Positions 17,086 to 21,774 of a stretch of 64,000 nt of DNA are shown here, one piece after another (positions within the stretch are counted from its first letter, which is position 1; every line of letters starts with the position of its first letter). A model generated the notes under the pieces. The model did not search any database, was not told the origin of the DNA, and saw only the letters and a list, made by a program, of their open reading frames with translations. The position numbers and the translations under genes were made by a program. The stretch is taken from positions 1-64,000 of the forward strand of contig CALMBF010000077.1 in assembly GCA_937860145.1 (NCBI GenBank), given 5' to 3'. Source of the stretch: an uncultured Geobacter sp. Lineage in GTDB: Bacteria > Desulfobacterota > Desulfuromonadia > Geobacterales > DSM-12255.

Positions 17086-17151
17086 TATCATGCAAATATC
17101 TGGCTGCGTGTCCGCATGCTCGCCACAAACAAAACATCCAGGCAGGAGCCG

Positions 17152-18284
17152 ATGAATCGAATCGTCGTATATAGTCTGATTACAGGAGCCCTCATCGTCA
17201 TGACAGCCACACTGCCCAACACACCCAGCTCTGCCCAGACCCGGTCACCACTCTCCCTTGAGAGCGACCTGAAGAACCCGGTCATGGTGACCAGGGGTGG
17301 GCGGCTCGAACAGGCCCGCATCATGTGGGATTTTCTCTTCAACAAACCTGCGGACACCCACCCGTCCGGGGCGATACCGGTACAGGCACTGACCACAGTG
17401 CACCTGATGACCGCCCCGGACAACACGGTCTACCGCCTCGGACACTCGACCGTCCTGATGAAGCTCCAGGGCTCCTTCTGGCTGACCGATCCGATGTTCT
17501 CCCACCGGGCGTCCCCGGTGTCGTTTGCCGGTCCGGAGCGGTTTCACGCCCCCCCCATCGGTATTGACCAGCTCCCGCCAATCAGGAGTGTCATCATCTC
17601 CCACGACCATTACGACCACCTGGACCATGGTTCCATCATGAAGCTGGCGGAAAAGACGGACTATTTCCTGACACCCCTGGGGGTGGGGGACATTATTATC
17701 GGCTGGGGGTACCGGCGGCCAAGGTACGGCAGCTGGACTTGTGGCAGGAAACTGACGTTGACGGCATCCAGCTCGTCGCCACCCCTGCCCGGCACTTCTC
17801 CGGTCGCGGCCTGTTCGACAAGAACAGGACCCAGTGGGCGTCATGGGCCATCCTTGCCCCTGACCGGCGGATCTTCTTCAGCGGCGATACCGGCTATTTC
17901 GACGGCTTCAGGCAGATCGGCGAGAAATATGGTCCCTTCGACCTGACCCTGCTGGAAACGGGGGCCTACAATGAAAACTGGCCGAACGTCCACATGCAGC
18001 CGGAAGAGGGCATCAGGGCCCACCTCGATCTCAGAGGCAAGGTTCTTCTCCCCATTCACAACGGGACGTTTGACCTGTCCATGCACTCATGGAGAGACCC
18101 GTTCGACCGTATAACCGCCCTGGGCTACGCCGTGGGTATTCCGGTCATAACACCCTTTATGGGTGAACCGGTGAGTACGCACGACACTGCGGTCGACCAG
18201 CGCTGGTGGGAAGACTTAGGTAGCACCGTAAGGAATGGAAGTTTACGCGAGCTGTCGGGACAATCAATTGTAGATCCTAGCTGA
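17152..18284 (+). pseudogene. Exported MBL-fold metallo-hydrolase (UlaG/NAPE-PLD-like), frameshifted
   Basis: The start MNRIVVYSLITGALIVMTAT gives a signal peptide. The mature part shows YRLGHSTVLMKLQGSFWLTD and the zinc motif SHDHYDHLD, then goes out of frame after DIIIGWG. The correct continuation lies in another frame and runs to 18284: VPAAKVRQLDLWQETDVDG, TPARHFSGRG, FFSGDTGYFDGFRQIG and LPIHNGTFDLSMHSW. Adding one G to the G5 run at 17705-17709 restores a single frame of about 378 residues. It is either a homopolymer sequencing error or true inactivation. AGGAG lies just upstream of the chosen start. The 120-nt gap after it, to 18403, holds the arsR promoter. Confidence 0.82.
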
Positions 18285-18367
18285 CATCGTAGGACCTCTT
18301 CCAGCTACACTCGATCGCGGTAGGCGACCGCATTGAATGCCTCACCCTCACTCATAAGGGTGCCACC

Positions 18368-18397
18368 TTGACCAGAGGGGGGTGACTGCTATATAAA
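18368..18397 (+). promoter_or_regulatory. arsR promoter, apparently giving a leaderless transcript
   Basis: TTGACC (18368-18373) is followed after 16-18 bp by TATATAAA (18390-18397). The arsR ATG at 18404 lies only 6-7 nt beyond the -10 box, where transcription should begin, and no ribosome-binding site fits in between. The purine-rich GAGGGGGG at 18375-18382 is too far from the start and lies within the promoter spacer. Confidence 0.65.
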
Positions 18398-18403
18398 GAA
18401 ACC

Positions 18404-18751
18404 ATGAAACATAACGCCCAGATATTCAAGGCACTCTCCGACCCCATCCGCCTGCGCATCATCCTGCTCCTGCAATCCGAAGGTGAACTGTGCGTCTGTG
18501 ACCTGATGGCAGTGCTCGGTCTCCCCCAATCCACGGTCTCCCGCCACCTGGCCTACCTGAAACGGAGCTGCTGGGTAGATATCCGCCGCCAGGGGGTCTG
18601 GATCTACTACCAGCTAAACAGGGAAAGCTGCCAGCTGTGCCGGGAGCTGCTCGACACCCTGCAACGCCATGTGTGTACCCTGCCCGAAGCAGCCTCGGAC
18701 CGGCAGGCGCTCGCAAAATTTATCAAAAGCAAAACTCCCGCCTGCACGTGA
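18404..18751 (+). CDS. arsR: ArsR-family arsenic-responsive repressor
   Basis: This 115-residue winged-helix repressor matches the ArsR pattern. FKALSDPIRLRIILLL is followed by ELCVCDL, which supplies the vicinal thiols C30 and C32 for As(III)/Sb(III). The recognition helix is LPQSTVSRHLAYLKR. Further cysteines at C76 and C79 may take part. It heads the arsenic operon and is expected to repress it until arsenite binds. It is separated from arsC by 83 nt containing a second promoter with an inverted repeat, probably its operator. Confidence 0.93.
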   Translation: MKHNAQIFKALSDPIRLRIILLLQSEGELCVCDLMAVLGLPQSTVSRHLAYLKRSCWVDIRRQGVWIYYQLNRESCQLCRELLDTLQRHVCTLPEAASDRQALAKFIKSKTPACT

Positions 18752-18799
18752 CATAACCCACTGCTCTTGCCGGCAACGTGCGCTTCTGAAATTCCCCCC

Positions 18800-18827
18800 T
18801 TGATTTATCCGCAAAAGCGGATATATT
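18800..18827 (+). promoter_or_regulatory. arsC promoter with embedded inverted repeat (probable ArsR operator)
   Basis: TTGATT (18800-18805) and TATATT (18822-18827) are 16 bp apart. The spacer is filled by the perfect 7-bp inverted repeat TATCCGC-AAAA-GCGGATA (18806-18823), placed where a repressor would block polymerase. The arsC ATG at 18835 is 7 nt after the -10 box with no ribosome-binding site, so the mRNA is probably leaderless, as for arsR. Confidence 0.65.
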
Positions 18828-18834
18828 AAGCGCT

Positions 18835-19254
18835 ATGAAACAGCGCGTCCTCTTTCTCTGTACCCACAACTCCTGCCGCTCCCAGATGGCCGAAGCCTTG
18901 GTCAACCACGACCTGGGCGACCGGTTCGAAGCATTTTCCGCCGGCACCAGGGCGACCCGGGTCAACCCGATCGCCGCCCTCGTGCTGACCGAGGTCGGCA
19001 TCGACATCTCCCATCACTACTCCAAGACGATCGACGCATTTGCCGGCCAGACCTTCGACCATGTCATTACCCTGTGCAGTGATGCCGACGAGAAGTGCCC
19101 CCTGTTTTTGGGCGGGGTGAAGCGCACACACATCGGCTTCGACGATCCGTCACGCTGCTCAGGCGCGCCCCACGAAGTGATGGCCGAATTCCGCAGGATC
19201 CGGGACGAGATCAGGGAAACAGTGACGGACTACCTGCTGAATGCACGTCGGTAA
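18835..19254 (+). CDS. arsC: Arsenate reductase, low-molecular-weight phosphatase type (thioredoxin-coupled)
   Basis: This 139-residue cytoplasmic enzyme reduces arsenate to arsenite for efflux. It has the P-loop CTHNSCR (C9 to R15). The resolving cysteines are C81 and C88 in LCSDADEKCPLF, which define the thioredoxin-coupled (pI258 ArsC) class rather than the glutaredoxin class. That agrees with the thioredoxin-like proteins later in the operon. It begins directly after its own promoter and is followed 21 nt later by acr3. Confidence 0.94.
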   Translation: MKQRVLFLCTHNSCRSQMAEALVNHDLGDRFEAFSAGTRATRVNPIAALVLTEVGIDISHHYSKTIDAFAGQTFDHVITLCSDADEKCPLFLGGVKRTHIGFDDPSRCSGAPHEVMAEFRRIRDEIRETVTDYLLNARR

Positions 19255-19275: not shown

Positions 19276-20328
19276 ATGGAAAAACAGATGAGTTTCTTCG
19301 ACAAGTACCTGACCGTCTGGGTGGCGATCTGCATGGCCGTCGGTATTGGGTTGGGCAAGCTGCTCCCCGGCATGGTCTCGTCCCTGCGGGGGATGGAGTT
19401 CGGCACGGGGTCGCAGATCAACATCCCCATCGCGGTGCTGATCTGGCTGATGGTCTACCCGATGATGCTCAAGGTCGATTTCTCCTCGGTGGTCAATGTG
19501 GGCAAAAATCCCAGGGGGCTCTTCGTCACCCTGTTCGTCAACTGGATCGTCAAACCCTTCAGCATGGCTTTCTTCGCCTGGCTCTTCTTTCGCCTGGTGT
19601 TCAGTTCCTGGATCGCGCCCGGCGAGGCCGACCAGTACATCGCCGGCTCCATCATCCTGGCCGCCGCCCCCTGCACCGCCATGGTCTTCGTCTGGAGCTA
19701 CCTGACCGACGGCGACCCCGGCTACACCCTGGTGCAGGTGTCGGTGAACGACCTCCTGATGCTGGTCCTGTTCGCACCCATCGTCAAATACCTCGTGTCA
19801 GGCGCATCGAACCTGATCGTCCCGTTCGGCGTGCTCTTCACCTCCGTGGTGGTATTCATCGTCATCCCCCTGGCGGCCGGGGTGGTAACCCGCAACGTCC
19901 TGATGAAGTCCCACGGCCCGGACTGGTTCAACGACACGTTCCTCCCCCGGCTTCACCCGGTGGCAATCAGCGCACTGCTGGCTACCCTGGTGCTGATCTT
20001 CGCGTTCCAGGCCGACAACATCACCGGCCGGCTCTTCCACGTGCTGCTGATCGCCGTGCCGATCACCATCCAGGTCTATTTCAACTCGTCCCTGGCCTAC
20101 GGGCTGATGAAGTGGCTCAATATCCCTTACAGCGTCGCCGCGCCCGGCGCGCTCATCGGTGCCAGCAACTTCTTCGAACTGGCCGTGGCAGTGGCGATCA
20201 CCATTTTCGGTCCCGAGTCCGGCGCCGCCCTCGCCTGTGTGGTCGGCGTACTGGTCGAGGTGCCGGTCATGCTCTCGGTCTGTTCCATCTGCACCCGCAC
20301 CCGTCACTGGTTCCCGGCCAGAGCATGA
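19276..20328 (+). CDS. acr3: Arsenite efflux permease of the ACR3 family
   Basis: This 350-residue inner-membrane protein has about ten helices. It carries the essential cysteine in AAPCTAMVFVW (C133) and the conserved glutamate in ASNFFELAVAVAI (about residue 297), both needed for As(III) extrusion in characterised ACR3 proteins. The start at 19276 has GGGAG upstream; MSFFDK four codons later is a possible alternative. It sits between arsC and the DUF2703 gene, and is the main arsenite exporter of the operon. Confidence 0.95.
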   Translation: MEKQMSFFDKYLTVWVAICMAVGIGLGKLLPGMVSSLRGMEFGTGSQINIPIAVLIWLMVYPMMLKVDFSSVVNVGKNPRGLFVTLFVNWIVKPFSMAFFAWLFFRLVFSSWIAPGEADQYIAGSIILAAAPCTAMVFVWSYLTDGDPGYTLVQVSVNDLLMLVLFAPIVKYLVSGASNLIVPFGVLFTSVVVFIVIPLAAGVVTRNVLMKSHGPDWFNDTFLPRLHPVAISALLATLVLIFAFQADNITGRLFHVLLIAVPITIQVYFNSSLAYGLMKWLNIPYSVAAPGALIGASNFFELAVAVAITIFGPESGAALACVVGVLVEVPVMLSVCSICTRTRHWFPARA

Positions 20329-20353: not shown

Positions 20354-20794
20354 GTGACCGGCACAAAAATACTGACCATCACCTGGCGGCGACTGCTGGC
20401 CGGCGGTGAAACCTGCCCACGGTGTGGCGCCACAGAAGCCGAGGTCGATACGGCGGTGACGCTTCTCCGGCAGTCGCTCGAACCGCTCGGTTTCGAGGTC
20501 AGCCTCGTAAAGCAGGAGCTGACCATGATGCAGTTCAAGCAGGATACCCTCCAATCAAACTCGATCCGGATCAACGGCCGTCTGCTGGAAGAGTGGCTCG
20601 GCGGCAGCACCGGCCAGAGTGTGTGCTGTGACGTCTGCGGCTCCAACGATTGCCGGACCGTGGAAGTAAAGGGCGACGTTTATGAATTCATCCCGGCGGA
20701 CCTGGTTGTCAAGGCCGGCATGCTGGCGGCAGCGCAGCTGATGGGCGCTTGTGATTGCGCCAATGATCAACCGGAGCACAGTTGCTGCTCGTAA
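20354..20794 (+). CDS. DUF2703 cysteine-rich protein
   Basis: This 146-residue protein starts at GTG 20354, preceded by AAGGAG. Ten cysteines are arranged as CPRC (near residue 21), a CC-x2-C-x4-C group (SVCCDVCGSNDC), CDC and a terminal CC. The body (VDTAVTLLRQSLEPLGFEVS, RINGRLLEEWLGG) matches the DUF2703 family, which is recurrent in arsenic operons and has no settled function. The thiols suggest metalloid binding or delivery to a permease; this is inference from composition and from its place between acr3 and the ArsP-like permease. Confidence 0.8.
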   Translation: MTGTKILTITWRRLLAGGETCPRCGATEAEVDTAVTLLRQSLEPLGFEVSLVKQELTMMQFKQDTLQSNSIRINGRLLEEWLGGSTGQSVCCDVCGSNDCRTVEVKGDVYEFIPADLVVKAGMLAAAQLMGACDCANDQPEHSCCS

Positions 20795-20817: not shown

Positions 20818-21774
20818 ATGTTCGCATTTCTTGAACAGTTCGCCTCTCTGGTCGTGACGCAGTGGCTTGGGCTGGAGCTCTCTACCCGTCTCGGCGGGGC
20901 GCTGCATTTCTTCATCTACGACACCCTGAAGATCTTCATCCTGCTGGCAGTGATCATCTATGCTGTCGCAGTCATCCGCTCCTGGTTCCCGCCGGAAAAG
21001 ACCAAGCGCATCCTTTCCCATGAACGCGAATACATCGGCAACGTCATGGCCGCACTGCTCGGCATTGTCACCCCCTTCTGCTCCTGCACGGCGGTGCCGC
21101 TCTTTATCGGCTTCGTCGAGTCGGGGGTGCCGCTCGGCGTCACCTTTTCCTTCCTGATATCCTCCCCCATGGTCAACGAGGTTGCCCTCATCATGCTCTG
21201 GGGGATGTTCGGCTGGAGGATCGCCCTGATCTACGTCGGCACCGGCCTCATGGTGGCGATCGTCGCCGGCATCGTCATCGGCAGGCTCAGGATGGAACGG
21301 CACGTCCAGGATTACGTCTGGGAGATGCAGGTGGGGAGTGCGGAGATCCCCGAGCAGAACTGGCCACAACGATGTACCTACGCCTACGACTACACCGTTG
21401 GACTGCTCAGGAAGATCTGGCCCTATGTGATCGTCGGCATCGGTATCGGCGCCTTCATCCACGGCTACGTCCCCCAGGATTTCCTGGCCCGCTGGGCCGG
21501 GCGGGACAACCCCCTTGCCGTCCCCGTGGCGGTCGCGCTCGGCGTGCCGCTCTACAGCAATGCCGCCGGGGTGATCCCCATCGTCCAGGCGCTCACTGCC
21601 AAGGGGATGGCCATCGGCACCGTGCTGGCGTTCATGATGGCGGTCACCGCCCTGTCCCTGCCGGAGGCGGTCATTCTCAGCAACGTCCTCAAGAAGCCGC
21701 TCCTGGCGACCTTCTTCGGCACCGTCGCCGCGGCCATCGTGATCGTCGGCTACCTGTTCAACGCAATCCTGTAG
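20818..21774 (+). CDS. ArsP-like permease (SO_0444/DUF318 family)
   Basis: This 318-residue membrane protein has about eight helices and the family signature TPFCSCTAVPLFIGFVESG with C88 and C90. A second conserved block is LYSNAAGVIPIVQAL. Characterised ArsP members export trivalent organoarsenicals; others in the family are associated with copper or other thiophilic ions. Its position in an arsenic operon, followed downstream by a TM0996-type thioredoxin-like protein, is the usual arrangement. No ribosome-binding site matches consensus closely, so coupling to upstream translation is possible. Confidence 0.85.
   Translation: MFAFLEQFASLVVTQWLGLELSTRLGGALHFFIYDTLKIFILLAVIIYAVAVIRSWFPPEKTKRILSHEREYIGNVMAALLGIVTPFCSCTAVPLFIGFVESGVPLGVTFSFLISSPMVNEVALIMLWGMFGWRIALIYVGTGLMVAIVAGIVIGRLRMERHVQDYVWEMQVGSAEIPEQNWPQRCTYAYDYTVGLLRKIWPYVIVGIGIGAFIHGYVPQDFLARWAGRDNPLAVPVAVALGVPLYSNAAGVIPIVQALTAKGMAIGTVLAFMMAVTALSLPEAVILSNVLKKPLLATFFGTVAAAIVIVGYLFNAIL

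Follow-up and report, generated by a model that had tools for sequence, protein, structure and literature searches.

Predicted leaderless arsR and arsC genes behind conserved, start-abutting promoters in a Geobacter arsenic resistance locus

The ars locus and its genes

The stretch of DNA analysed here (the window, 64,000 nucleotides) comes from an uncultured Geobacter sp. whose genome is assembled as 3.96 Mb in 207 contigs. It carries an arsenic resistance unit in which arsR, arsC, the arsenite efflux gene acr3, a DUF2703 gene and an ArsP-type permease gene follow one another in that order. The features referred to below are:

18368..18373, plus strand: -35 element of the arsR promoter, TTGACC
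18375..18385, plus strand: G-rich, Shine-Dalgarno-like run GAGGGGGGTGA within the arsR promoter spacer, judged not to be a ribosome-binding site
18390..18397, plus strand: arsR -10 region TATATAAA, best register TATAAA at 18392-18397
18404..18751, plus strand: arsR, ArsR/SmtB metalloregulator gene, predicted leaderless, its mRNA predicted to begin no more than about 2 nt from 18404
18800..18805, plus strand: -35 element of the arsC promoter, TTGATT
18806..18823, plus strand: perfect palindrome TATCCGC-AAAA-GCGGATA, predicted ArsR operator, lying in the spacer of the arsC promoter and overlapping its -10 element
18822..18827, plus strand: arsC -10 element, TATATT, 10.5 bits, with the ATG 7 nt downstream
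18830..18846, plus strand: predicted RNA hairpin GCGCU-AUGAAAC-AGCGC, existing only in a read-through transcript, with the arsC AUG in its loop
18835..19254, plus strand: arsC, low-molecular-weight-phosphatase-type arsenate reductase gene, predicted leaderless
19276..20328, plus strand: acr3, Shine-Dalgarno-led control (TIGR00832, 380.8 bits, above the cut-off of 282.8)
20354..20794, plus strand: DUF2703 gene, Shine-Dalgarno-led control (PF10865)
20818-21774: ArsP-type permease gene, the last listed gene of the unit

The ArsR protein scores well above the cut-off of the HTH_metalloreg model NF033788 (95.1 bits against 55), also matches PF01022, and has CVC at residues 30-32, which we take to be its metal site. 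ArsC matches the fold family PF01451 (78.1 bits) and falls below the curated cut-off of TIGR02691 (136.7 against 174.3 bits, the best of three hits), so that this model does not place it among the pI258-type thioredoxin-coupled enzymes. Its sequence displays the CX5R and CX6C motifs, the former being the P-loop C9-X5-R15 (residues 9-15), and both motifs presumably have their usual roles; the protein is classed here, from its sequence, as low-molecular-weight-phosphatase-type arsenate reductase-like. The nearest named relatives of arsC are from Desulfuromonas, Geobacter and other Desulfuromonadales.

Upstream of arsR, at 17116-18284, a gene of the metallo-beta-lactamase fold (PF12706) is split across two overlapping frames, the pieces of which match profile positions 4-74 and 93-199, suggesting a frameshift or an assembly error. 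Elsewhere in the assembly, one contig end (L188, G000:C143, about 1-40) translates to MCIRDS / SYTHLTLPTNREV-like peptides, presumably the typical adaptor artefact, and some contig ends may therefore carry adaptor.

Promoters and translation starts of arsR and arsC

Each of the first two genes is preceded by a sigma-70-type promoter that abuts its coding sequence. In the arsR promoter an 18-nt spacer separates the -35 element from TATAAA, which ends at 18397 and is followed by 6 nt and the ATG at 18404; an alternative -10 register, TATATA at 18390-18395, ends 8 nt before the ATG and scores 8.5 bits rather than the 10.5 bits of the register ending at 18397. The arsC promoter has a 16-nt spacer between TTGATT and TATATT, with the ATG at 18835. 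The distances of 6 and 7 nt from -10 element to ATG, and their coordinates, had been put forward in a sequence-only reading of this DNA and are exact to the base. Both promoters are the highest-scoring sites upstream of their genes (250 nt scanned for arsR, 120 nt for arsC) under a matrix of Escherichia coli sigma-70 frequencies, which may differ from those of this host. A standard sigma-70 promoter starts transcription some 7 nt past its -10 element, and the predicted start points therefore lie at about 18402-18405 for arsR and about 18834-18835 for arsC.

The same reading held that no ribosome-binding site could fit ahead of either gene and that the acr3, DUF2703 and thioredoxin genes have normal sites. 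The latter is borne out, as Shine-Dalgarno sites precede acr3 (CAGGGAGCACCGGTA-ATG, with CAGGGAG), the DUF2703 gene (AAGGAGCTCGATC-GTG, with AAGGAG) and the ArsE-like thioredoxin gene (AGAGGAGAAAGGACC-ATG). The former holds in that neither arsR nor arsC has a Shine-Dalgarno sequence at Shine-Dalgarno distance, but it needs amending for arsR, upstream of which the run GAGGGGGGTGA does exist. This run is ruled out as the arsR ribosome-binding site, since it lies at least 18 nt from the ATG and is missing from L086 and L090, two relatives in which the promoter itself is retained. A search of this genome for the 16S rRNA 3' end returned only a single match that was not rRNA, and the canonical anti-Shine-Dalgarno sequence was assumed.

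Other start codons were rejected. For arsR the sole in-frame candidate upstream is a CTG at 18386, which adjoins the Shine-Dalgarno-like run and immediately follows a TGA; for arsC there is just an ATA before its stop is reached. Downstream, the first in-frame ATGs are codon 35 of arsR (18506) and codon 18 of arsC (18886), the use of which would cost most of the ArsR helix-turn-helix (HTH_5, residues 13-54) or the P-loop Cys9 of ArsC. With no viable start on either side, 18404 and 18835 are secure as start positions.

Conservation across homologous ars loci

Homologues were scored with one and the same matrix, a promoter being called leaderless-type where it scored at least 8.5 and ended 5-9 nt before the start. 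The set derives from 90 examined of 129 matches, and its counts include the loci in which the pattern was first seen (L004-L083). Among distinct homologues, such a promoter precedes 25 of 97 arsC and 75 of 105 arsR genes and none of 93 acr3 genes, leaving 72 arsC and 30 arsR homologues that are not of this type. In all 25 leaderless-type arsC genes the best site lies 6 or 7 nt from the start. Dinucleotide shuffles of the upstream regions reached the same threshold in 12 of 1940 (arsC), 15 of 2100 (arsR) and 4 of 1860 (acr3) cases; the abutting arrangement is not due to chance.

The genes so preceded differ from the remainder in further respects. All 100 start with ATG, compared with 83 of the 102 others (p 1.5e-6, although kinship among the genes makes p values overstate their independence). 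A pyrimidine is expected immediately before a transcription start point, and C or T occupies position -1 in 91 of the 100, compared with 60 of the 102. A Shine-Dalgarno core is found in only 1 of 25 leaderless-type arsC genes, compared with 63 of the 72 others; for arsR the corresponding figures are 4 of 75 and 17 of 30, and acr3 homologues have the core in 85 of 93 cases. The absence of this core from the leaderless-type genes arises in part because the -10 element occupies its position. In quick trees the leaderless state changes at least 10 times for arsC and at least 21 times for arsR; only two independent pairs for each gene lie on well-supported branches, and the association with Shine-Dalgarno loss is then not significant.

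A second set, of arsR genes from outside the order of the window, excluded the loci of first discovery; 40 of 46 matches were taken and 39 counted, L233 being without a usable start. Leaderless-type promoters precede 17 of these 39, and many of them also carry a palindrome of the type described below; 16 of the 17 genes start with AUG, the exception (L254) with TTG. The suggestion that arsR and arsC are leaderless is thus upheld, as a prediction, by the conserved distance from promoter to ATG, the exclusive use of ATG and the loss of Shine-Dalgarno sequences.

A candidate ArsR operator and two locus architectures

The palindrome in the arsC promoter is the sole match in this genome of the operator pattern TATCYGNNNANNCGGATAT. 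With at most 3 mismatches it recurs in all 25 leaderless-type arsC promoters, its edge lying 10-11 nt upstream of the ATG in every one, and the resulting consensus reads CTTGATATATCCGC-N4-GCGGATATAAT (often TATATT), separated from the ATG by 6 or 7 nt. From this co-occurrence and the CVC of ArsR we infer that ArsR binds TATCCGC-N4-GCGGATA and is released from it by As(III). The arsR promoter of the window is without the palindrome, and this arsR is probably not autorepressed through it.

Comparison of 48 distinct arsR-arsC pairs, under slightly looser settings (a score of 8, at most 4 palindrome mismatches and 60 nt, in place of 8.5, 3 and 150 nt), points to two architectures. Class A comprises the 20 pairs whose arsR is at least 60% identical to that of the window, and class B the remaining 28. 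In class A, arsC has a leaderless-type promoter with palindrome in 18 of 20 pairs and arsR a leaderless-type promoter in 12 of 20; most arsR promoters of this class have TTGACC or TTGACG in the corresponding position. In class B it is arsR that has both leaderless-type promoter and palindrome (22 of 28), arsC being leaderless-type in none of the 28 and preceded by a Shine-Dalgarno core in 25. The arsC gene thus appears, as judged from its upstream sequences, in two forms, leaderless where it stands beside its own palindrome-bearing promoter and usually Shine-Dalgarno-led elsewhere.

Further palindromes were seen at some of these loci. In class A, an ArsR-type palindrome lies 80-110 nt ahead of several arsR genes. 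At one of these (G007:C62:217906-217954, upstream of the arsR of L130) such a site is overlapped by a promoter pattern that faces the other way, which suggests a divergent ArsR-controlled gene. Class B loci, for example L018, L141 and L164, have a second palindrome, with no evident promoter, between arsR and the Shine-Dalgarno-led arsC; a T-rich run that follows directly on the arsR stop often precedes it, and it could be a roadblock or a second operator.

Rarity of the arrangement in the genome and the order

Leaderless starts form a minority class in this genome, within which arsR and arsC stand out. In a sample made up of the window and 20 further stretches (311,566 bases), arsR and arsC are the only 2 of 241 gene calls with a strong site 5-9 nt before the ATG, the calling being crude and the denominator approximate. 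A strict promoter pattern matches six times in the whole genome; arsC, a higB toxin gene, and genes that we read from their sequence as PDZ-like and DUF362-like were judged plausible, and the matches in C44 and C204 were not. Across the order as a whole, leaderless spacing gives only a weak signal, since strict patterns in 97 genomes number 658 at 6-8 nt before the ATG, not especially abundant beside the 541 at 16-18 nt and 779 at 26-28 nt of two control spacings.

The higB match belongs to a higBA toxin-antitoxin pair (PF05015, TIGR02607; L189, G000:C158, about 446-1076), its leaderless-type promoter carrying a palindrome of its own, AAACAATTTGTTT; a similar site occurs in the relative G007. 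A further leaderless-spaced promoter, ending in TATAGTACCACA-ATG, recurs before what is apparently the same coding sequence in four relatives (the L194 region, G001:C77:13954-13992, and G002, G003 and G004).

Proposed expression of the unit and alternative explanations

Taken together, these data make it highly probable that arsR and arsC are served by separate sigma-70-type promoters, from each of which the mRNA would begin at the A of the ATG or no more than about 2 nt away, that arsC is both leaderless and ArsR-controlled, and that the arrangement is an old, conserved one. The leaderlessness of the two genes is a strong prediction; the start points, ArsR binding and leaderless translation are what we infer with it. 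Each mRNA would thus begin at its AUG and be translated without a Shine-Dalgarno site. In the absence of arsenite, ArsR would occupy the palindrome across the arsC spacer and -10 element and block the promoter; arsenite would relieve ArsR and release arsC-acr3-DUF2703. The arrangement appears to be an old feature, conserved among ars loci of this order and, for arsR, in the wider phylum. Leaderlessness seems to track promoter-proximal position, arsC usually being Shine-Dalgarno-led when it lies away from such a promoter.

A further proposal concerns why this should be so. The operator, -10 element and AUG may form a compact, phylum-conserved module that is kept leaderless so that the gene is translated only from its ArsR-controlled promoter, arsC staying silent on RNA that reads through from arsR. 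At loci where arsR has no operator, arsC on read-through RNA would be silent for want of a Shine-Dalgarno site and through the operator hairpin, and would be switched on only via its own promoter; at loci where arsR carries the operator, arsC would be Shine-Dalgarno-led and co-transcribed. The predicted fold of 18795-18894, which includes the operator hairpin, has a z-score of -3.16. Accessibility of the AUG does not set the leaderless genes apart, since it increases when the upstream RNA is omitted for 25 of 25 leaderless-type arsC genes but also for 64 of 72 other arsC genes and 75 of 93 acr3 genes, and the proposal is accordingly offered tentatively, as a possible but rather doubtful one. 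The general notion that a leaderless start can protect a gene from the leakage of operons ahead of it is already in print (PMC3160421); no ars version of it was found in the open-licence PMC literature.

The sequence-only reading offered a different reason, namely that leaderlessness was selected for translation by intact 70S ribosomes in arsenic stress, when canonical initiation fails. Leaderless mRNAs are generally accepted to be taken up mainly by direct binding to 70S ribosomes, and there is a report of ppGpp-dependent stimulation during oxidative stress; the version of the idea that involves MazF was not reproduced by other laboratories (PMC9031893, in the text available). Evidence specific to arsenic was sought in the open-licence PMC literature and not found. 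Against this explanation, the efflux pump gene acr3 is Shine-Dalgarno-led in the window, as it is in most of its homologues, which would leave the central step of resistance dependent on canonical initiation, and class B arsC genes mostly have a Shine-Dalgarno core. We regard selection for stress translation as unlikely, and promoter proximity, with arsC under its own ArsR-controlled promoter, as the simpler account of the pattern.

It is improbable that the transcripts start further upstream, from another promoter or by read-through into arsR and from arsR into arsC, giving leadered mRNAs that merely lack a canonical Shine-Dalgarno site. No terminator was called in the gap between the two genes (18752-18799), so read-through is possible, and a promoter-like site of 7.6 bits ends at 18311. 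The abutting promoters are nevertheless better (10.5 bits) and keep a near-fixed distance across many genera and families, and arsC is not generally free of Shine-Dalgarno sequences, as its homologues away from such promoters demonstrate. That the promoters are real and the genes start instead at the downstream ATGs, each with its own ribosome-binding site, is scarcely credible, as the HTH_5 domain would be mostly deleted and the whole C9-X5-R15 loop removed, and the N-terminal residues of the homologues align.

If arsR and arsC are leaderless as predicted, this small inducible unit, with its Shine-Dalgarno-led acr3, lets both modes of initiation be compared, and the use of either mode by the same arsC gene in different relatives extends the comparison across genomes. 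Start-codon annotation and the design of ars biosensors in these bacteria should not presuppose that arsR or arsC is preceded by a ribosome-binding site.

Comparison with known leaderless systems

Leaderless mRNAs had been called uncommon in proteobacteria, which stands for most groups and agrees with their rarity in the genome sample; in the available text of Zheng et al. 2011, however, 8 of 33 delta-proteobacterial genomes are predicted to have leaderless genes, at an average of 15.8% in those eight (PMC3160421). The 'TA-led' genes of that study resemble arsR and arsC in that the place of the Shine-Dalgarno sequence is taken by a -10-like signal, some 12 nt ahead of the start codon. Its approach is statistical and genome-wide, whereas here the same orthologues keep the arrangement across an order and it is tied to an ArsR-type palindrome. 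The same source proposes, for Sulfolobus and for bacteria at large, that a promoter-proximal gene can be leaderless and a distal one needs a Shine-Dalgarno site (PMC3160421).

The closest parallel among ars genes is the arsR of Cupriavidus metallidurans CH34, likewise a metal-resistant proteobacterium, for which a leaderless mRNA was mapped, its 5' end lying fewer than 5 nt from the start codon (PMC7563307). That organism is a betaproteobacterium, its available account names arsR and not arsC, and the 5' end was measured there, whereas it is predicted here. In Burkholderia cenocepacia J2315 a TA-rich promoter motif similarly lies directly upstream of leaderless genes, although the portion of that report available names no ars genes among the leaderless transcripts (PMC4603805). 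Transcription regulators are enriched among leaderless genes in both accounts (PMC7563307, PMC4603805). Titles and abstracts in the open-licence PMC literature yielded no leaderless arsC, nor any leaderless ars gene in Geobacter-like bacteria. In Deinococcus-Thermus, too, the -10 region abuts the coding sequence and the mRNA is leaderless; there, as far as the available text goes, it is a common mode in the phylum, unlike the rarity suggested by the present genome sample (PMC12340547). The promoter geometry of leaderless genes has thus already been described in many bacteria, and the ars case presented here is a new and well-conserved example of it.
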